Shown here: positions 17,889-63,166 of the stretch, one piece after another
Position numbering within the stretch: position 1 is the first letter of the stretch
Layout of the letters: every line of letters starts with the position of its first letter
Virus record (IMG/VR): IMGVR_UViG_3300036834_000211
Coordinates: 50,542-114,541 of that record
Origin: a virus
Reading direction: 5' to 3' (one strand)
Length of the DNA stretch: 64,000 nt
Notes under the pieces: generated by a model
Database searches by the model: none
The model's input: the letters and a program-made list of their open reading frames with translations, nothing else
What the model was told of the DNA's origin: nothing
Translations under genes and position numbers: made by a program

Positions 17889-18380
17889 TTATACCGCCAT
17901 TGACATCAACATCTCGGTCACGGCTGAGAAGGCCACGTTGACTCTCCCTTGCGACAATCCCAATCTCTTCCGAAAGTAGGCTCGGGCCTTGTGGGCAGTC
18001 AGGTCCATCGCCGCCACGTCGTTGAGTACCAAATCCACCATCACGCGCGCGTCCTCAGGCAGGTCGCGGATCAGCTCGGTCAGGAGCAGATTTCGATCTG
18101 GTGCTGGCATCGACCGATCTGGCATCCCCTCGTCGAGTTCGTGTGTAATGGGATGTACGCGCTTGTGCCGGTCGGTTATCCCACACAGGTGACGATAGAC
18201 GCAGTATGTGGCAAACGTGTTGAATGACGACTTGCGCGGGTCGTACTCGACGTTACCGAGGACGCCCTGCTCGGCATTCCAGCGGGCTATCCGAGCCTCC
18301 TGCAGCAGGTCGTCGAGGTCCATACCGCTCGTGGTGGAAAACGAGTAGGCGTACTTGAGTACCGCCGGGTGGTCTTTCAT
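17889..18380 (-). CDS. RNA polymerase sigma factor (short, phage-encoded)
   Basis: A 163-residue protein; ATG 18380 has GGAG upstream and overlaps the previous stop in ATGA. Residues about 4-70 match sigma-70 region 2 (KYAYSFSTTSGMDLDDLLQE, then SSFNTFATYCVYRHL), which binds the polymerase clamp and melts the -10 element. The C-terminal 60 residues (LPEDARVMVDLVLND to VNVAFSAVTEMLM) are helical and may be a diverged region 4. It is shorter than normal sigma factors. It would redirect host polymerase, plausibly to late promoters. The gene ends a minus-strand operon beside the tail genes. Confidence 0.75.
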   Translation of the reverse strand: MKDHPAVLKYAYSFSTTSGMDLDDLLQEARIARWNAEQGVLGNVEYDPRKSSFNTFATYCVYRHLCGITDRHKRVHPITHELDEGMPDRSMPAPDRNLLLTELIRDLPEDARVMVDLVLNDVAAMDLTAHKARAYFRKRLGLSQGRVNVAFSAVTEMLMSMAV

Positions 18381-29242: not shown

Positions 29243-29812
29243 ATGGATTGGGATCGAGTTCGCACCGGCGTAGTCGACATCCTGGTGGGTCTAGGCTGCG
29301 ACTTGAGTGATCCGAACTTCCTTGGCACCCCCGATCGGGTCGTCGAGTCTTACAAGGAGATCTTCGGCGGCCTCGACGAGGTGTCTCAGAAGATTGAGGA
29401 CATCCTGAGCAGTTCGTTCCCGTGTAGTCACGATCAGCTCGTCGTCGCACGAGGTATGGAGGTGTACGGGGTCTGTCCTCATCACCTACTACCGGTTCGG
29501 TACTCGGTCGTCGCGGCCTATCTCCCCGGGTCCGCACCCGGTGGACGCGTTGTTGGGTTGAGTAAGATCTATCGGCTCGTCAAGCTGCTGGCTGGTAGGC
29601 CCGTTCTACAGGAGCAGATGGTCAACGACGTTGCCGAGGCGTTGATGCACATCCCTGGTTGTCAAGGATCGGGGGTCGTCGCCCACGGCGAGCACTTGTG
29701 TGTTCGGATGCGCGGGGTACAGCAGGTCGACAGTGTCGTGACGACGAGCAGCCTGCGCGGTGTCTTCCTCAGTGATGGTGACGTCCGAGCCGAGTTCATG
29801 TCCCTGCGTTAA
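29243..29812 (+). CDS. folE: GTP cyclohydrolase I
   Basis: A 189-residue protein. It converts GTP to 7,8-dihydroneopterin triphosphate, the first step toward 7-deazaguanines. The zinc and active-site motifs are present: YGVCPHHLLPV, then VVGLSKIYRLVKLLAGRPVLQE, GCQGSGVVAHGEHLCVRMRGV and the RG-F ending. Length is normal for the core enzyme without an N-terminal extension. It starts after GGGAGG, behind a large stem-loop. With QueD, QueE and QueC elsewhere in the window it completes the preQ0 pathway. Confidence 0.92.
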   Translation: MDWDRVRTGVVDILVGLGCDLSDPNFLGTPDRVVESYKEIFGGLDEVSQKIEDILSSSFPCSHDQLVVARGMEVYGVCPHHLLPVRYSVVAAYLPGSAPGGRVVGLSKIYRLVKLLAGRPVLQEQMVNDVAEALMHIPGCQGSGVVAHGEHLCVRMRGVQQVDSVVTTSSLRGVFLSDGDVRAEFMSLR

Positions 29813-30696: not shown

Positions 30697-31739
30697 CACC
30701 TCGGTACAGTTGCATCTTCATCTCGCGTGCCTGTCCGCGTGCCTGTTCGTACTGTCTCAGCAAGGACGTCCGCGGTGCAGGATCACTGCTCACACCGAAG
30801 GGGTGGGCCGATGCCTTGCGCATACTCGAGTCCCACGGCATCGTCTTCCACCTGATACTCGGGAACGAGCTGTTCACCTACCCGGATCCGGTGGGATTAG
30901 TCGAGGCGCTGAGGCCGTTCTGGGGCCGCTACGCAATCTACTCGACCTTCCCACCCGGCTATGCGAAGCGGTACCTGGACCCTTGCATCGAGGCGGGTCT
31001 GTACAACATCTCCGGTGGAGTGGACGTCCCGGCGGGTATGAAGACTGGCGATCGTCACGTTGATCGGAAGAGCAGTGAGGTGCTGTACTGGCTCGACTAC
31101 TGTCACACCCACGGTGTGCCAGACGTCCAGGCGACCGTGACGATCCACCGGCACAACTACGATAAGCTGGAGCCACTCCTGGACTACTGCACGGAGCGAG
31201 ACATCTGGGTCGGATGCAGTCTGGTTGAGGCGAGTCCCGATGGGAAGCACGACTTCTACGGTTCGGTCGACTCGATGCGCGACTGGTTGATTCCAGAGAA
31301 CGAGCGCGGCAGGTTTAGGAGTGCGATGTCCCGACTCGCCAGCCAGGTTTCGTCGGGTCGGTGGAAGATGCAGGTTCCACCGTCGTACTTCGAGGAGATG
31401 GGAGAGCGCGAGGTCGATCGAGATCCGTGGCACTGCAGCCTCCCTTTGCTGATCCACGTGGAGGAGGACGGTGTCCTCCGCGCGTGCTCCTACCGGGGTG
31501 GACTGGACGAGCGCTACACCGTGTTCGACCTGCGCGAGGGCGGCTCCTTGTCGATGTCGCGGTATATTGAGATGCAGCAGAGGAAGACGAGACAGTGCCC
31601 GGGCTGCGGGGTCGGCGGGGGAGCGTGGAGCTACTGGTACATGGCAGAAGAATGGCAGAAGGGCCTCGTCGAGCTGGGCGACCAGGTGTTCCAGCGGCAC
31701 GTTCCCGGTTACGAATTTGAGAGGACGAGGCAGAAATGA
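30681..31739 (+). CDS. Radical SAM enzyme with C-terminal SPASM-like cluster
   Basis: A 352-residue protein starting at GTG (GGAGG 6 nt upstream), overlapping the SDR end by 16 nt. Cys18, Cys22 and Cys25 form the CxxxCxxC iron-sulphur motif, followed by a radical SAM barrel. The C-terminus has further Cys (DPWHCSLPLL, RACSYRGG, RQCPGCGVGG) like auxiliary-cluster SPASM enzymes. It is not QueE, which is at 52492 and much shorter. Coupled to queC by ATGA, so it probably acts on a 7-deazaguanine or its substituent. Substrate unknown. Confidence 0.75.
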   Translation: MQGSVTPRYSCIFISRACPRACSYCLSKDVRGAGSLLTPKGWADALRILESHGIVFHLILGNELFTYPDPVGLVEALRPFWGRYAIYSTFPPGYAKRYLDPCIEAGLYNISGGVDVPAGMKTGDRHVDRKSSEVLYWLDYCHTHGVPDVQATVTIHRHNYDKLEPLLDYCTERDIWVGCSLVEASPDGKHDFYGSVDSMRDWLIPENERGRFRSAMSRLASQVSSGRWKMQVPPSYFEEMGEREVDRDPWHCSLPLLIHVEEDGVLRACSYRGGLDERYTVFDLREGGSLSMSRYIEMQQRKTRQCPGCGVGGGAWSYWYMAEEWQKGLVELGDQVFQRHVPGYEFERTRQK

Positions 31740-32470
31740 GTGATCCTATCATCTACGTGTTGCTGAGCGGAGGGATCGACAGTGCCACCGCACTGGGCCT
31801 CGCCGTTGAGAAGGTGGACGAGGTGCGATGCGTTACGATCGACTACGGACAGCGTCACCGCCGCGAGATCGAGGCTGCCGCTGCCCTGGCTGAGATATAC
31901 GACTGCGAGTACGATCTCATCTCGATGCCGATGGGACGGACGATGCTGACCGATCCGACGATTGAGGTGCCCGACGTCGACTATAGCGAGATCATCGGCG
32001 TATCACCCACCTACGTCCCATTTCGCAATGGTCTCATGCTGTCGACGGTGGCTTCTTACATTGCGGGTCGGCATCACGACCTATCTCAAAGGTTTATCGA
32101 CCCTGGTGATGGCGGCATTGGAAAGCCACTCAATCCTGATTACGACCGAGACTGTTTGATCTACTGGGGGGCCCACGCTGAGGATGCAGCCGGCGGGGCG
32201 TATCCGGACTGCACTGCCGAGTTCGTGGGTGCGATGTCGTGCGCGATTGCCATCGCAACGTCGCATAAGGTTAGATTGGTGGCACCCTTCGTCGCGATGT
32301 CGAAGGCCGAGGTTGTCGAGCGAGGGTCCCTACTGGGCGTGTCGTATCGGTGGACGTGGAGTTGCTACAAAGGGGGTGAGAAGCACTGTGGGGTCTGTCC
32401 TACGTGTCGAGCTCGCAAGAGGGCCTTCCTCGATGCGGAGGTTGCGGATCCGACTGAGTACGCCGAGTAG
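31736..32470 (+). CDS. queC: 7-cyano-7-deazaguanine (preQ0) synthase QueC
   Basis: A 244-residue protein. The N-terminal PP-loop LLSGGIDSATAL binds ATP; the family signature DYGQRHRREIEAA follows; the C-terminus YKGGEKHCGVCPTCRARKRAF holds the zinc Cys cluster. It converts 7-carboxy-7-deazaguanine to preQ0 with ammonia. It is ATGA-coupled to the radical SAM gene. Full length, no fusion to an amidotransferase. Confidence 0.92.
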   Translation: MSDPIIYVLLSGGIDSATALGLAVEKVDEVRCVTIDYGQRHRREIEAAAALAEIYDCEYDLISMPMGRTMLTDPTIEVPDVDYSEIIGVSPTYVPFRNGLMLSTVASYIAGRHHDLSQRFIDPGDGGIGKPLNPDYDRDCLIYWGAHAEDAAGGAYPDCTAEFVGAMSCAIAIATSHKVRLVAPFVAMSKAEVVERGSLLGVSYRWTWSCYKGGEKHCGVCPTCRARKRAFLDAEVADPTEYAE

Positions 32471-49017: not shown

Positions 49018-50862
49018 GTGAGACACATCTCCCTCCAGTCTGTTAGCATGACTAACTTCAAGTCGTTCGCCTCGGCCAGCGTAGACCTGAGGCGGGGACC
49101 CGGCCTGCGGATGATCTTCGGCGAGAACCGGAAGAAGCCGCGCCTCGGCGCGAACGGTGCTGGTAAGTCAACAATCTGGGATGCGGTCGAGTTCAGTCTG
49201 AGTGGGCGGTCCGTGCGCGGCAAGCGCGCGTCCGAGTTGGTGACTACCGGTTGTAAGAAGACCATCGTGGAGACGACCTGGCTGATTGACGGCGAAGTCC
49301 GGACCGTCGTGCGCTCATATCCACCTGAGCGCGTATACGTCGACGGCGAGCAGTCCGATCAGCGCGCTGTGGACGAGCTGATGGGCATGACCCGCGACCG
49401 CCGTCTGGCGTCGGTGATCTTCGGTCAAGCTAAGCCACTGTTCATCGATCTCCCCGTCCCCGAGCGCGGTGACCTGCTCGACGAGGTGCTGGGCCTCGGG
49501 TTCTGGATGCGCGCGGCGGACTTAGCGACGTCGAGGTGGAATGCCGCCGGCGTCGAGATGCAGAAGTTGCAGCGCGAACTGGCCAGGCTGGACGGTGCCC
49601 TGGCCGAGCTACCAAGCGAGGAGAGTCTATCGGCATCCGTCTCGGCCTACGAGGAGGACCGCGATCGGCAGCTCGTCGAACTCCGAGAGCGACGTCGTTC
49701 GCTCGACGCCGAGTACCGGAAGCTGCGTCGCGAGCTGGTAGCTACCCAGGTTGACGTCGATAGGGAGGAGGAAGTTAGTAGGTTGCGCGACGATCTGCGC
49801 GACCTGGCGTCGAAGCAGTCGGCAGAGGTTGCGGTGCTCCAGTCAGAGATCGCCGGCCTGGACGGAGACATCAAGTTCTTCGGCGATACGGGGGAGTGCC
49901 CCACCTGCGGCCAGGAGATATCCGAGAGGCATGCCGAGACGTGTATTAATGAGATGACTGGTGAGCGGGGTGAGAAGTTCGATCTTCTGTGTACGATCCA
50001 GTCTTCCCTGGCTGCGACGCACGAGCGCCTGGACGTCCAGGCGAACGACCTGCGCGCCCTCGTCGACAAGAACCGCGACCGGCACCGGCTGGTACTGGCC
50101 GTGGCTAACAAGAAGTCTGATGTAAGTATCGTCGACAACAGGATCCAGCTGATACTCGACCAGGTCAATCCCCACGAGGAGCAGCTTCGGACGATTGCGG
50201 ATCGTCGCATCGTTCTCGACGGTCAGCTCAAATCCAAGCGAGCGGACGAGGCAGCGCTGTCCATGCGGATCGACCGCCTGGACTTCTGGAGGCAGGGCTT
50301 CCGTCGCGTCCGCGTGTTCTGCCTGGCGCGGGTGCTGGCCGAGCTGGAGGTCGCGACGATGAGTGAGGCGCGCAGCCTGGGCCTGGTGGGCTGGCGTATT
50401 AGGTTTAGCGGTGAGACCGAGACCAAGTCCGGCACCGTCCGGCTGGGCGTCCAGGCCGTCGTCGAGGAGGACGGTGTCCGCCGCGACTTCGACGCCTGGA
50501 GTCCTGGCGAAGGTCAGCGCATACGGTGCGCCTGCGCGCTCGGCCTGGGATCCCTCGTGCAGCGACACTCGGGGGTCTGGTACGACCTGGAGGCGTGGGA
50601 CGAGCCCACCGCCTGGCTGGCGGCCGAGGGCATCGATGATCTGTTCGAGAGCCTGAGGGAGCGCGCCTACTCCCGCAGCAAGTCCATCTGGGTCGTCGAC
50701 CCGCGGGCCGGGCTGTCACACGGCGGTTTCGACGAGGTGTGGAACGTCGTGAAGTATGCCAGCGGATCCCGGATTGACGTCGCGCGGTCGGATCAGGCGA
50801 TGCGCGCCGGGATTGCTCACGCGAAGTCGCAAGGTCGTATAATTAGGCATGGCTCTTGCTAG
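49018..50862 (+). CDS. sbcC: SbcC/Rad50-like ATPase subunit
   Basis: A 614-residue protein starting at GTG. Walker A is GANGAGKST (about residues 44-52), followed by the Q-loop region VIFGQAKPLF. Two coiled-coil arms (about 180-300 and 320-430) flank a zinc hook, CPTCGQEI. The C-terminal lobe has the signature AWSPGEGQRIRCACALGLGS and the Walker B and D-loop EAWDEPTAWL. It is shorter than bacterial SbcC because the coils are short. Partner of the nuclease at 47168. Confidence 0.85.
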   Translation: MRHISLQSVSMTNFKSFASASVDLRRGPGLRMIFGENRKKPRLGANGAGKSTIWDAVEFSLSGRSVRGKRASELVTTGCKKTIVETTWLIDGEVRTVVRSYPPERVYVDGEQSDQRAVDELMGMTRDRRLASVIFGQAKPLFIDLPVPERGDLLDEVLGLGFWMRAADLATSRWNAAGVEMQKLQRELARLDGALAELPSEESLSASVSAYEEDRDRQLVELRERRRSLDAEYRKLRRELVATQVDVDREEEVSRLRDDLRDLASKQSAEVAVLQSEIAGLDGDIKFFGDTGECPTCGQEISERHAETCINEMTGERGEKFDLLCTIQSSLAATHERLDVQANDLRALVDKNRDRHRLVLAVANKKSDVSIVDNRIQLILDQVNPHEEQLRTIADRRIVLDGQLKSKRADEAALSMRIDRLDFWRQGFRRVRVFCLARVLAELEVATMSEARSLGLVGWRIRFSGETETKSGTVRLGVQAVVEEDGVRRDFDAWSPGEGQRIRCACALGLGSLVQRHSGVWYDLEAWDEPTAWLAAEGIDDLFESLRERAYSRSKSIWVVDPRAGLSHGGFDEVWNVVKYASGSRIDVARSDQAMRAGIAHAKSQGRIIRHGSC

Positions 50863-51055
50863 GTACTACCCGCGCCAAAAGGCGGAGATACTCGAGAAGA
50901 TTGCTGCTGTCGAGGAGCAGGGTGATCTTGAGGCTCGCATTCGAATTATGACTGAGCACGAACTGAGCGAGGATGAGCTCCTCGAGTGGCGACGTCGGTT
51001 TGCGATTCGTGGTGTGTCGGCCCTCCGTACGACCAGGACTCAGAATTTTAGGTGA
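50849..51055 (+). CDS. SciP-like DUF1153 transcription regulator
   Basis: A 68-residue protein overlapping sbcC by 14 nt. Residues about 5-68 follow the DUF1153 pattern: YYPRQKAEILEKIAAVEEQG, a second helix, then LSEDELLEWRRRFAIRGVSA and LRTTRTQNFR, close to the SciP ending (GL-R-x-TR-x-Q-x-YR). SciP in alphaproteobacteria blocks CtrA-activated genes during the cell cycle. A TATAAT sits 5 nt before the ATG, so a leaderless message is possible. It would let the phage interfere with host cell-cycle transcription, or regulate its own genes. Confidence 0.7.
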   Translation: MALARYYPRQKAEILEKIAAVEEQGDLEARIRIMTEHELSEDELLEWRRRFAIRGVSALRTTRTQNFR

Positions 51056-51061
51056 CCCCTA

Positions 51062-51496
51062 ATGATTGTCGTGACCGCCAGTCGTTTCCACGATTTTTCT
51101 TATGGACATCGGGTATTTGGGCACGAGAACAAGTGTGCTCACCCCCACGGCCACAATGCCAGGGCCCACTTCAGCTGCTCTGCTCCAGAGCAGGACAGCA
51201 TCGGTCGAATCATTGACTTTGGTGTGATGAAGAGCCTCCTGTGCCAGTGGCTCGAGGACAACTGGGACCACAAGTTCTTGATTTGGGTGAGTGATCCCTC
51301 GTCCTGGGATCTGATCAAGTTGTATCCCGGAGGGGTGGTGAGCGTCCCTTTCAATCCCACCGCTGAGAACATGGCTCGGCACCTGTTGGAAGTCGTTGGT
51401 CCGCGGTGCCTGGTCGGTACGGGTGTCGAGTTGATTGAGGTCGAGGTCGAAGAGACTAGGAAGTGCAGTGCATCTGCCAGGATAGAGAAGGAGTAG
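51062..51496 (+). CDS. queD: 6-carboxy-tetrahydropterin synthase QueD
   Basis: A 144-residue protein. It converts dihydroneopterin triphosphate to 6-carboxy-tetrahydropterin. Motifs: FSYGHRVFG (first zinc His), CAHPHGHNARAHF (catalytic Cys, then two zinc His), IIDFGVMKSLL, NWDHKFLI, and PTAENMARHLLE. Length is slightly above the usual 120 residues. It lies 15 kb from queC and dpdA but close to queE. Confidence 0.9.
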   Translation: MIVVTASRFHDFSYGHRVFGHENKCAHPHGHNARAHFSCSAPEQDSIGRIIDFGVMKSLLCQWLEDNWDHKFLIWVSDPSSWDLIKLYPGGVVSVPFNPTAENMARHLLEVVGPRCLVGTGVELIEVEVEETRKCSASARIEKE

Positions 51497-52491: not shown

Positions 52492-53313
52492 ATGTTTGGT
52501 CTAAATCAAATTACTACGGCTAAGGATTTTGTGGGTCAGACTCCCTACACGTTGAAGGTTACTTCGATCTTCTATACATTGCAGGGTGAGGGCCCCTTTT
52601 CGGGACATCCTTGCGTATTCGTGCGCTTGTCCCACTGTCACCTCCAGTGCAAGTTCTGCGACACGTGGTTCGACAGTGGTGATGTGATGTCCTTCCCTGG
52701 TATCGTCGGAGCGGCTCGAGGATCCGTGCGACGATTTAATGAGATGCACGGTGGGTCAATTGACGAACTACCGGACTTGTTCGTCATTACGGGCGGTGAA
52801 CCGCTGCTCCAGCCCAATCTAGTGCGGTTTATTGATTACTTATCATTGAGTGGTATCCGAGTGCAGATTGAGACGACTGGGACGATCGATGTTGATGTCC
52901 CGCGCGATGTGGGTGCGTACGTGGTGTGCAGTCCGAAGCTCAATGCTCGTGGATTGCCGTTGCACATCTCACTGTCGATGCTCGAACGTGTTGACTGCAT
53001 GAAGTGCGTCGTGTCCAAGACTGATCTACTTTACAATGACATCCCATTCTTGGTACTGTATTGGCGAGATCAGCATCCCGATCGGCCAGTCTACGTGTCA
53101 CCAATGAACACCTACCTCAAGCCACCAGTCAAGCTGGGGGTTGATGGGTCGCTCGAGGGTCGAAGTGAGACGGACGAGCGCATTTCATTCTGGACGCCCG
53201 GACTGCTTGATCTTGAGGCAAATCGGGTGAACCACGAGTACGCAGCCGAATTGGCACTGCGCCATCGAGTGCGACTGACCCTGCAGACGCACCTGTACGC
53301 GAGTCTGCCGTGA
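52492..53313 (+). CDS. queE: 7-carboxy-7-deazaguanine synthase QueE
   Basis: A 273-residue protein; ATG 52492 has GGAGG upstream. Radical SAM motif CHLQCKFCDTWF (CxxxCxxC) lies near residue 45, preceded by FYTLQGEGPFSGHPCVFVRL, the QueE-specific substrate and SAM region, and followed by ITGGEPLLQPNL and IETTGTID. It converts 6-carboxy-tetrahydropterin to 7-carboxy-7-deazaguanine, the QueC substrate. Longer than minimal QueE (about 220). Confidence 0.92.
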   Translation: MFGLNQITTAKDFVGQTPYTLKVTSIFYTLQGEGPFSGHPCVFVRLSHCHLQCKFCDTWFDSGDVMSFPGIVGAARGSVRRFNEMHGGSIDELPDLFVITGGEPLLQPNLVRFIDYLSLSGIRVQIETTGTIDVDVPRDVGAYVVCSPKLNARGLPLHISLSMLERVDCMKCVVSKTDLLYNDIPFLVLYWRDQHPDRPVYVSPMNTYLKPPVKLGVDGSLEGRSETDERISFWTPGLLDLEANRVNHEYAAELALRHRVRLTLQTHLYASLP

Positions 53314-54979: not shown

Positions 54980-57900
54980 ATGAAGTTCACTCGGGTGTTG
55001 ACTGCCGACCAGCCGTTCGACTTCGGCGTTACAGCGTGGATCAGGTGGAAGACCGTCGACACCGTGATCGCCGCTACCGACGGGAGTGTGATTTTCGAAC
55101 AGCGCGGTGTCGAGGTGCCCGAGCAGTGGTCGCAGAACGCGGCGAACATCCTAGCCCAGAAATACTTCCGCAAGGCTGGCGTGCCGGCAGACGGCGAGGC
55201 GATGGCCAGGCATCGGGAGAATGGGATGCCAGACTGGCTCTGGGCGTCCACTCCGCTTCGCGCGTCGGCTGCGATGACTGGTCCGGAGACCTCGGCGAGA
55301 CAGGTGTTCCACCGCATGGCCGGGTGCTGGACCTACTGGGGCTGGCGCGAGGGGATGATCACGGTCGAGGAGGACGCCCGCGTCTTCTACGACGAGGTCT
55401 ACGCTAGCCTGGCCTTTCAGTACGCGGCTCCCAACTCACCGCAGTGGTTCAACACCGGCTTGCACTGGGCCTACGGCATCGAGGGGCCGGACTCCGGTCA
55501 GTGGTACGTCGACGACGTTGACGCCCGTCTTGGTCACTTTCCCGTGCGCCGAATCCACAATAGCTACGAGCGTCCCCAGCCCCACGCCTGCTTCATCCAG
55601 ACCGTCGAGGACGACCTGGTCAACCCGGGAGGCATGATGGATCTGTGGACGAGAGAGGCGCGGCTGTTCAAGCACGGCTCCGGCACTGGGTCTAACTTCA
55701 GCAAGATCAGGGGGAAGGGTGAGCTGCTGTCGGGAGGTGGAGTCAGCAGCGGTCTGATGTCGTTCCTGCGCGTCGGCGACCGCTCAGCTGGCTCGATCAA
55801 GAGCGGTGGCACGACCCGACGCGCCGCCAAGATGGTCGTGCTCGATGCGGACCACCCCGAGATCGAGGACTTCATAGATTGGAAGGCTTCCGAGGAGTAC
55901 AAGGCCGCGTGCATCGCAGTCGGGAGTCGAGTCATTCACGATCGGCTGGTAGGCGTGCCGAGGTTACAAGCTCGGCGTGTTCCTAGATACGATGATGTAC
56001 TGGGTGATGAATTTGGTTGCATACCCCAGTCGCTGATCGAACGAGCGAGGGTTGGCGAGGATAACTGGCCCGTTTATGAGGCGAACTCGTTCGAGGGTGA
56101 GGCCATCGAGACCGTATCGGGTCAGAACTCTAACAACTCGGTGCGCGTTTCGAATGAGTTCCTCCGACGTGTCGATGCAGATGAGAGTCATTGGCTTACG
56201 GCTCGTACTACAGGAGACGTAGTAAGGAGTATTATGGCTCGCGACCTGTGGCTTCGACTGTGCCACGCCGCGTGGGCTAGCGGGGACCCGGGCGTCCAGT
56301 TCGATGATACGATCAACGAGTGGCATACGTGTCCCACCGACGGTCGCATCAATGCGAGCAACCCATGCGCGGAATATCTCTTCCTCGACGACACCGCGTG
56401 TAATCTAGCCTCCCTCCGCCTGACGAGGTTCCTGCCTCTCGATGACGACGCCCTGACAAAGTTCGAGCACGTCGTCCGCTTGTGGACCGTCGTGTTGGAG
56501 ATCTCGGTCCACATGGCGTCGTTCCCATCCGAGGCCATCGCCCGCAACTCCCACTTGTACCGCACATTGGGGCTCGGCTATGCCGACCTCGGTGGCCTGC
56601 TGATGCGGTTGGCCATTCCCTACGCCTCCGACGAGGGCCGCGCCCTGGCCGCGGGTCTGACCGCTCTGATGACGGGCGTCGCCTACCGGACCAGCGCAGA
56701 GATGGCTCAGGAGGTTGGTACATTCCCGCGGTGGGAGGCGAACGAGGAGTGCATGAGGCGGGTGCTGTGCAAGCACGCGAATGGTCTCCGATCCGACGGT
56801 ACTCAGAATATCCGGGATAGGTGCATGTCGGCCTGGGTTAGTGTGATTCATGCCCCGTCCTTCCGCAACGCCCAGGTGACCAACCTCGCACCGACCGGCA
56901 CCATCTCGTTCGTGATGGACTGCGACACCACCGGGGTCGAGCCGGACTTCGCGCTGGTCAAGGAGAAGAAGCTGGCTGGTGGCGGTTCTATGCGGATCGT
57001 CAACCAGGCGGTACCCGAGGCACTCGGCAGGCTTGGCTATACCGACGGGATAAGCAAAGTTATTGTGGATAATATCGAGAAGGGACTGGGTTGGGGTCCG
57101 CCGTTCGGTGTTTCTAAACCTCATATGTCGGTCTTCGCCTGCGCCGGCGACATCAGCGCGGATGACCACGTCAGGATGGTCGCCACGGTGCAGCCCTTCC
57201 TATCCGGCGCGGCGAGTAAGACGGTCAACCTGCCCCGCGACGCGACCATCGACGATGTAGATCGGGTGTTCCGCCTCGCCGCGAGCCTGGGCGTCAAGAC
57301 GATCTCGATCTACCGGGACGGCAGCAAGCTGTCCCAGCCGCTCAGTGCTGGCAATGTATTGCAAGCGATTCGACCGGAATTAGACGTACTTGCGGATTTG
57401 GATCCGGATGAATTCGAAGAAGAGCGTGAGGAGAAACAGGCGGGGGCAAGACCGGACCCGCCTGGGGGCAGGATTGCCGGTCCCTCCCCCGAGCGTGTGG
57501 CCCCGAGCGACGGAGTGTCGGGGCACTCCCTGCACCGCGGCGCCCGCGAGTACCTCCCGTGGAGACGCGAGCACGGCTGGACCCAGAAGATCAAGATAGG
57601 ACAGGACAGGCAGAGCGTGTTCCTGCGCGTATCCGAGTATCCCGACGGCCGTCCCGGCGAGGTATTCCTGGAGATAGCGGGCGAGGGAAGTACGCTCCGC
57701 GCCCTGGCCAACTGCCTCGCCATCTCGATATCGGTGGGGCTCCAGCGCGGCGTCCCAGTGTCCGAGTATGTGGACCAGCTCGTCGGGCTCAAGTTCGAAC
57801 CGGCCGGCTACGTCGAGGGCCATGATCGCATCAGGTTCGCCAGCTCGATCGCCGACTACATCGGGCGCGAACTGGGGATATCCTATCTGGCCCGCGACGA

Positions 57901-58138
57901 TCTGGCCAACGCACCAGCTTCGATCGAGGAGTCCATCGAGCGCATAGCTGAGGCGTCCGAGATGGCGGACCGGGAGTGGCAGGCAGTTCGTCCCGATGAT
58001 CTACTGGTGGCCTATTCCGAGGCTAAGGTCTGGCAACCGACCGGGGATCCGTGCCCTCGGTGCGGCTCGCTACTGCGACGGAGCGGGACCTGCCGCTCGT
58101 GCTCGAACTGCTCGTACGACGAGGGGTGCAGTGGCTAG
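54980..58138 (+). CDS. nrdJ: Class II (adenosylcobalamin-dependent) ribonucleotide reductase
   Basis: A 1052-residue protein with GGGGAG upstream of its ATG. It reduces ribonucleotides to deoxyribonucleotides using vitamin B12. Visible motifs: substrate Cys in PHACFIQTVED, GSGTGSNFSKIRGKGE, the GQNSNNSVRVSNEF stretch, the thiyl-radical NPCAEYLFLDD region, and APTGTISFVMDCDTTGVEP. A C-terminal domain (about 900-1050) ends with CPRCGSLLRRSGTCRSCSNC, the Cys-rich tail that recycles the active site. No separate beta subunit is present or needed. It supplies dNTPs when the host is resting. Confidence 0.9.
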   Translation: MKFTRVLTADQPFDFGVTAWIRWKTVDTVIAATDGSVIFEQRGVEVPEQWSQNAANILAQKYFRKAGVPADGEAMARHRENGMPDWLWASTPLRASAAMTGPETSARQVFHRMAGCWTYWGWREGMITVEEDARVFYDEVYASLAFQYAAPNSPQWFNTGLHWAYGIEGPDSGQWYVDDVDARLGHFPVRRIHNSYERPQPHACFIQTVEDDLVNPGGMMDLWTREARLFKHGSGTGSNFSKIRGKGELLSGGGVSSGLMSFLRVGDRSAGSIKSGGTTRRAAKMVVLDADHPEIEDFIDWKASEEYKAACIAVGSRVIHDRLVGVPRLQARRVPRYDDVLGDEFGCIPQSLIERARVGEDNWPVYEANSFEGEAIETVSGQNSNNSVRVSNEFLRRVDADESHWLTARTTGDVVRSIMARDLWLRLCHAAWASGDPGVQFDDTINEWHTCPTDGRINASNPCAEYLFLDDTACNLASLRLTRFLPLDDDALTKFEHVVRLWTVVLEISVHMASFPSEAIARNSHLYRTLGLGYADLGGLLMRLAIPYASDEGRALAAGLTALMTGVAYRTSAEMAQEVGTFPRWEANEECMRRVLCKHANGLRSDGTQNIRDRCMSAWVSVIHAPSFRNAQVTNLAPTGTISFVMDCDTTGVEPDFALVKEKKLAGGGSMRIVNQAVPEALGRLGYTDGISKVIVDNIEKGLGWGPPFGVSKPHMSVFACAGDISADDHVRMVATVQPFLSGAASKTVNLPRDATIDDVDRVFRLAASLGVKTISIYRDGSKLSQPLSAGNVLQAIRPELDVLADLDPDEFEEEREEKQAGARPDPPGGRIAGPSPERVAPSDGVSGHSLHRGAREYLPWRREHGWTQKIKIGQDRQSVFLRVSEYPDGRPGEVFLEIAGEGSTLRALANCLAISISVGLQRGVPVSEYVDQLVGLKFEPAGYVEGHDRIRFASSIADYIGRELGISYLARDDLANAPASIEESIERIAEASEMADREWQAVRPDDLLVAYSEAKVWQPTGDPCPRCGSLLRRSGTCRSCSNCSYDEGCSG

Positions 58139-62674: not shown

Positions 62675-63166
62675 ATGGGTTGGTCGGTCGTATTGACTTA
62701 TGGTACCTGCGAGCGCAAGGCCGTTGAGAACCTCAAACGTCAAGATTACGAATCTTTCTGTCCGCTCTTCGAGCGTCCCAGTAAGTCCAATCTGACGCAG
62801 ACGGTTGAGACCCCACTGTTCCCGTGCTACATATTCGTGAGTATCGAACCGGAACAGCCGTGGCATAGTATTAACAGCACGCCCGGTGTCGTTCGATTGC
62901 TGACCGATCGGAATCGATTAAATCCGAAGCCACTCTTCGTACGCGACGAGAAGGTCGATGAGATCCTAGCCTGGTCCAGGACCGCCGAGGATCCGCTCCC
63001 CGCCGGCACCTTGGTGCGAGTGCGCGGTCGGACTAATCCATTCTACGACATGACTGGCACTGTCGTGGGAATGGACAAGCTGATGCGCGTCTCGGTGTTG
63101 ATGAGCGTGTTCAATCGCGACGTGATAGTCGAGTTTGTGCATCCCGCCGAGCTCGAGAAGCTGTAG
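62675..63166 (+). CDS. NusG/RfaH-like transcription factor
   Basis: A 163-residue protein with the NGN domain (WSVVLTYGTCERKAVENLKR, QDYESFCPLFE, TPLFPCYIFVSIEP, TPGVVRLL) and a C-terminal KOW-like part (RVRGRTNPFYDMTGTVVGMD). It would bind the clamp of RNA polymerase and prevent pausing or termination. Placed first behind a strong promoter and ahead of structural genes, it probably works as an operon-specific antiterminator like RfaH. No specific recruitment site (ops) was identified. Confidence 0.85.
   Translation: MGWSVVLTYGTCERKAVENLKRQDYESFCPLFERPSKSNLTQTVETPLFPCYIFVSIEPEQPWHSINSTPGVVRLLTDRNRLNPKPLFVRDEKVDEILAWSRTAEDPLPAGTLVRVRGRTNPFYDMTGTVVGMDKLMRVSVLMSVFNRDVIVEFVHPAELEKL

Follow-up and report, generated by a model that had tools for sequence, protein, structure and literature searches.

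SciP is a small protein of alphaproteobacterial cell-cycle control, and GcrA, which belongs to a protein family other than DUF1153, is a sigma-70 cofactor that is active at methylated promoters. SciP of Caulobacter binds DNA, interacts with CtrA and represses CtrA-activated promoters (PMC4287350), and it blocks the recruitment of RNA polymerase while leaving CtrA in place (PMC6169604). SciP function is relieved by the alleles sciP(T24I) and sciP(T65A), and T24I relieves SciP-dependent repression (PMC4241560). Phages carry versions of host regulators as well. GcrA is encoded by phiCbK and its relatives, CtrA sites have been found in phages and GcrA in those of the phiCbK type (PMC9437464), and a gcrA-bearing phage has been tied to a Rhizobiales host (PMC11309003). 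TgrL, an XRE factor of phiCbK, acts on hfiA and alters holdfast development of the host (PMC10688885). From phage GcrA and the XRE factor it is already evident that Caulobacter phages act on host development.

The protein described here resembles phage GcrA in being a phage-borne copy of a cell-cycle regulator of Alphaproteobacteria, and TgrL in being a phage version of a host transcription-factor family, although it belongs to DUF1153 and not to the XRE proteins. It is encoded in a window of 64,000 nucleotides, i.e., the whole stretch of DNA that was analysed, which forms the right part (positions 50542-114541) of a 114,541-base IMG/VR record. Short DUF1153 proteins of this kind recur across viral types, which is the larger finding. 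In the openly licensed literature no paper on phage DUF1153 or SciP was found, and a full-text search for DUF1153 was likewise empty.

A DUF1153 protein without the N-terminal segment

The open reading frame (50849..51055, plus strand) is complete from ATG to TGA and specifies 68 amino acids. Residues 5-68 match positions 29-87 of the 87 positions of the Pfam profile PF06627 (DUF1153) with an E-value of 2.4e-8 and 34.4 bits, which exceeds the gathering threshold (23.5 bits) and is similar to the 33-35 bits that some non-canonical cellular helix-turn-helix ORFs obtain. The first-pass annotation had recognized a DUF1153 pattern and had named a search against this profile as its check, and the significant match bears it out. 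The LR-x-TR-x-Q-x-(Y/F)R ending that it described is present as LRTTRTQNFR (51023..51052, plus strand), a basic C-terminal family motif found in both the PF06627 match and the alignments, and the Trp of the recognition helix is W47. On the antisense strand of the ORF no Pfam family was matched.

That the protein would be SciP itself is not supported. The NCBIfam SciP model NF051866 gives an E-value of 1.1e-7 and 31.9 bits, with the equivalog cut-off at 100, and the N-terminal segment that precedes Arg-Trp in SciP (profile positions 1-28) is missing. The in-frame codons 5′ of the ATG are TAA (50840-50842), TTA and GGC; since this stop makes an earlier start impossible, the protein truly lacks the first 28 of the 87 profile positions. 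The ORF product is therefore a member of DUF1153 and not a SciP ortholog. With SciP it shares the helix-turn-helix core, the LRxTRxQxYR motif, the Trp of the recognition helix and a small basic C-terminus, while it differs by the loss of the PxGxPLTxxDLPP stretch, by an insert of five residues and by being phage-encoded. The solved structures 2jrt (95 amino acids) and 2oa4 (SiR5) are of the DUF1153 type as well, but they are full-length, with the DLPP segment. Both are matched, at the level of sequence, by the PF06627 family profile (E-values of 3.7e-28 and 1.2e-24, respectively), whereas the window protein as sole query reaches 2jrt at an E-value of 0.11.

The insert lies approximately at 50903..50917 (plus strand), at the junction of helix 1 and the helix-turn-helix, and is confined to the window copy in alignments that include 10 other viral short forms along with more than 60 cellular homologs. 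Six positions that are invariant across 27 aligned homologs are intact: K11, E43, W47, G55, L59 and T62. The invariant Trp stands in the stretch SEDELLEWRRRF (50966..51001, plus strand), which, going by the family, is the predicted recognition helix. The last 22 residues contain seven Lys or Arg and no Asp or Glu. Close relatives of the protein were absent from the phages, plasmids and viral contigs searched, and PHROGs holds no family that matches it.

Recurrence of the short form in viruses

A search with the SbcC-like neighbour of the gene led to two related contigs, G001 and G002 (38% identity), which both encode DUF1153, G002 even twice (81 and 69 bits). The window protein is 47% and 39% identical to these two G002 copies over 64 amino acids. 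Further viral copies were located with a nucleotide pattern that represents the C-terminal motif, followed by translation. They comprise the types L097 (eight contigs of up to 176 kb) and L103 (four contigs of up to 151 kb) and the single-contig types L109, L114, L115 and L119. Counted by protein type and contig, at least six viral types beyond G001 and G002 thus carry a short DUF1153, and one of these is also present in Erythrobacter phage XM05. This phage has a complete genome and a cultured host, Erythrobacter sp. JL475; its DUF1153 protein XM05_97 (65 bits; L094, 8010-8204) is annotated as hypothetical. Viral origin is backed by terminase matches, several of them below the curated cut-off, in G055, G058, G060, G061, G062, G064 and G353, and the viral status of the remaining short-form contigs is the IMG/VR classification. 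The copies L096 and L100 were left out of the count: both still have the N-terminal segment of cellular-type SciP and may stem from host DNA at the end of a prophage.

The N-terminal segment of the cellular homologs reads PxGxPLTxxDLPPxxTxRW. Apart from the cellular-looking L096 and L100, the part of it before Arg-Trp is missing from the viral set under any choice of start. In searches of whole genomes, matches of the short viral form start at profile positions 19-29 (13 in the divergent contig G065) and score 32-81 bits, whereas most matches in the alphaproteobacterial class begin at positions 1-24 and score 98-146 bits. Shortness or divergence is also seen in a few cellular matches (G109, G098 and G075), so that the form, though typical of phages, is not proven to be exclusive to them. 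Within one viral type the short form is under strong purifying selection. L097 and L099 differ by 13 synonymous and 2 nonsynonymous changes, a dN/dS of about 0.04, which indicates that the protein is kept by selection in this lineage.

In a tree of 66 columns with long branches, the window copy falls into a weak group with the G002 copies, L114 and L115; the copies of XM05, L097 and L103 are closer to sphingomonad sequences. The 69.6-kb contig G065 holds a variant (L093, 5986-6306) in which the N-terminal half of DUF1153 is recognized with 37.9 bits and a Lys/Arg-rich tail replaces LRxTRxQxYR.

GcrA was found above its cut-off in 3 of the 13 short-form records (G002, G058 and G059) and in none of 48 other viral records; as these controls were chosen by QueD and not by host class, the link may merely mirror alphaproteobacterial hosts. 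A cell-cycle module in phages is hinted at most clearly by G058 (IMGVR_UViG_3300006104_000065), where the DUF1153 gene is followed 2 bp later by the GcrA gene on the same strand (L212, 4351-4130 and 4127-3681). The window phage gave no GcrA match, in a record that may be incomplete.

Host and genomic surroundings of the window phage

The phage origin that the first-pass annotation had assumed is supported by the large and small terminase, head maturation protease, major head protein, tail and baseplate proteins encoded on the record. It also encodes DNA polymerase A, RecA, a clamp-loader-like ATPase and proteins of the sigma-70 region 2, NusG-like and Xre types. The sigma-70 region 2 protein (17889-18380, minus strand; 162 amino acids, 27.1 bits against a cut-off of 24) is a possible phage sigma factor and the NusG-like protein (62675-63166, plus strand; 64 bits) a possible processive antiterminator.

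The host is most likely alphaproteobacterial, as had been deduced earlier, judging from the distribution of DUF1153 and from the relatives of two other phage proteins. TerL is closest to that of Acetobacter phage phiAO1 (41%), with Bradyrhizobium phage BDU-MI-1 among the further matches. The class II (B12-dependent) ribonucleotide reductase (54980-58138, plus strand) is closest to that of BDU-MI-1 (43%), a phage in which no DUF1153 was found. The nearest relatives of the major head protein are spread widely over phages of Pseudomonas and other Gammaproteobacteria, and the host class therefore rests on DUF1153, TerL and the reductase. Among 80 DUF1153 loci listed from genome collections nearly all are alphaproteobacterial by title, the exceptions being one record each of Enemella and Micavibrio and several MAGs whose title gives merely Proteobacteria. 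The Enemella locus (L193, Enemella evansiae TN21-6) resembles a typical Roseobacteraceae SciP, although the record carries an actinobacterial title, and probably reflects contamination or a mislabelled genome. DUF1153 was present in 56 of 142 alphaproteobacterial genomes, a sample that includes many small genomes. Across a phylum sample of 150, strong full-length matches were obtained in about 35, and beyond these the matches were weaker and HTH-like.

GANTC has the lowest observed/expected ratio of 16 comparable palindromic motifs in the whole record (0.81 under a third-order model), a mild depletion that would fit, if weakly, a host with CcrM methylation. The window phage gave no N6/N4 methyltransferase match in a search for the CcrM-type family PF01555, and CtrA boxes of the form TTAA-N7-TTAA were observed 0 times in the phage against 0.2 expected, a number too low to be informative.

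The DUF1153 gene lies within a co-directional block of phage genes. Upstream, its start is overlapped by 14 nt by the 3′ end of a gene for an SbcC/Rad50-like ATPase (49018..50862, plus strand; NCBIfam Rad50 models, E-values down to 2.5e-13), an overlap through which the two genes are probably translationally coupled. Downstream, a gene for a QueD-like 6-carboxytetrahydropterin synthase (51062..51496, plus strand) starts about 6-7 nt past its end, in agreement with the first-pass annotation, which had placed queD directly after it; the protein matches TIGR03367 with an E-value of 1.1e-16, below the equivalog cut-off of that model. Considering the overlap and the short gap, co-transcription is the simplest arrangement. 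QueD-like aside, FolE (29243-29812), QueC (31736-32470) and a QueE-like protein (52492-53313) are encoded in the window. Together, the four make a 7-deazaguanine pathway likely, and the phage probably synthesizes a 7-deazaguanine, likely for DNA modification.

A TATAAT had been reported just ahead of the DUF1153 start. The hexamer is indeed there (50838..50843, plus strand), 5 nt before the ATG, and contains the in-frame stop mentioned above, but a promoter role was rejected: the motif lies within the SbcC-like coding sequence, no −35 match accompanies it and its distance from the ATG would force a leaderless transcript. A sigma-70 scan of 8 kb gave 2 sites against 2.2 by chance, none of them at the DUF1153 start. 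A conserved sbcC/queD neighbourhood was likewise discarded, as the DUF1153 genes of G001 and G002 lie elsewhere and do not adjoin sbcC, and none of 48 queD-bearing viral records searched contains DUF1153. In other viral lineages the neighbours are different again.

Proposed role and competing readings

We give about an even chance to the reading that the window protein is a host-directed, DNA-binding regulator acting in the CtrA/SciP/GcrA network. Speaking for it are the family membership, the phage context, the recurrence of the short form, the selection on it in one viral type, its co-occurrence with GcrA and the published precedents; the modest score, the loss of the N-terminal segment and the lack of GcrA and N6/N4 methyltransferase matches in the window phage speak against it. 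The phage protein would derive from the alphaproteobacterial SciP (DUF1153) family, having retained the helix-turn-helix together with the basic C-terminal motif and lost the N-terminal segment. We infer its DNA binding, promoter targets, timing and direction of effect as follows. Made during infection, the protein would bind host promoters of the SciP/CtrA type, possibly contacting CtrA or RNA polymerase there. As a consequence, the host CtrA/SciP/GcrA programme, which comprises division, motility, pili and replication timing, would be biased toward a state that favours the phage. Phages may thus borrow the SciP switch repeatedly. More tentatively, SciP could have been captured again and again, always without its N-terminus, as a phage tool that, sometimes in an operon with GcrA, overrides the CtrA/SciP/GcrA network as a portable two-gene module. 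If a trimmed SciP, in one case next to GcrA, is indeed recurrent in phages, they would carry both activating and restraining pieces of the alphaproteobacterial cell-cycle circuit.

The main rival is regulation of phage genes. Small helix-turn-helix autoregulators are common in phages, and the protein could time the replication and modification block (SbcC, QueD, ThyX, QueE and the ribonucleotide reductase), DUF1153 being a mere DNA-binding module. Its position in the co-directional block with the 14-nt sbcC overlap and the other transcription genes of the phage (sigma-70 region 2, NusG-like and Xre) are in line with this, but the neighbourhood is not conserved, neither in G001 and G002 nor in the other lineages. 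Moreover, a host target fits better with the resemblance to the SciP family and with the GcrA gene beside DUF1153 in G058, and we consider regulation of phage genes rather unlikely.

The missing segment bears on the direction of a host-directed effect. The full-length L096 has two Thr residues 41 positions apart, one in the PLT of the N-terminal segment and one where the recognition helix starts. By this spacing, T24 of SciP is probably located in the segment and T65 at the helix start. Should this mapping be correct, the phage forms have retained the second of the two sites (Ser40 in the window protein) and are without the first. As the N-terminal segment is absent and probably contains T24, CtrA-dependent repression might be lost. 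The protein could then be an antagonist of SciP or CtrA, i.e., a decoy or dominant negative that would occupy SciP sites or a CtrA surface with partial repression and thereby release CtrA-activated genes. The loss of the segment from all viral short forms and the relieving effect of sciP(T24I) (PMC4241560) speak for such an antagonist, which we nevertheless regard as improbable, the position of T24 having been mapped through spacing alone. As natural truncations, in one lineage demonstrably under selection, the phage forms make it testable which parts of SciP serve CtrA contact and which DNA binding, and the cultured phage XM05 is a ready experimental system.

Lastly, a transposase-type helix-turn-helix like that of IS3 OrfA, with a function unrelated to SciP and a DUF1153 match due to generic similarity, is already disfavoured and very improbable: HTH_Tnp_1 (PF01527) is the next-best Pfam family (16.6 bits, E-value of 0.0095) and DUF1153 searches weakly match some non-canonical cellular HTH ORFs and, at a loose limit, the E. 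coli control, but PF01527 falls short of the 24.1 bits of its gathering threshold, a catalytic transposase ORF was not recognized next to the gene, DUF1153 outscores HTH_Tnp_1 by 18 bits with a match that reaches through the C-terminal motif, and the copy with which the window protein shares 47% identity scores 81 bits against DUF1153.
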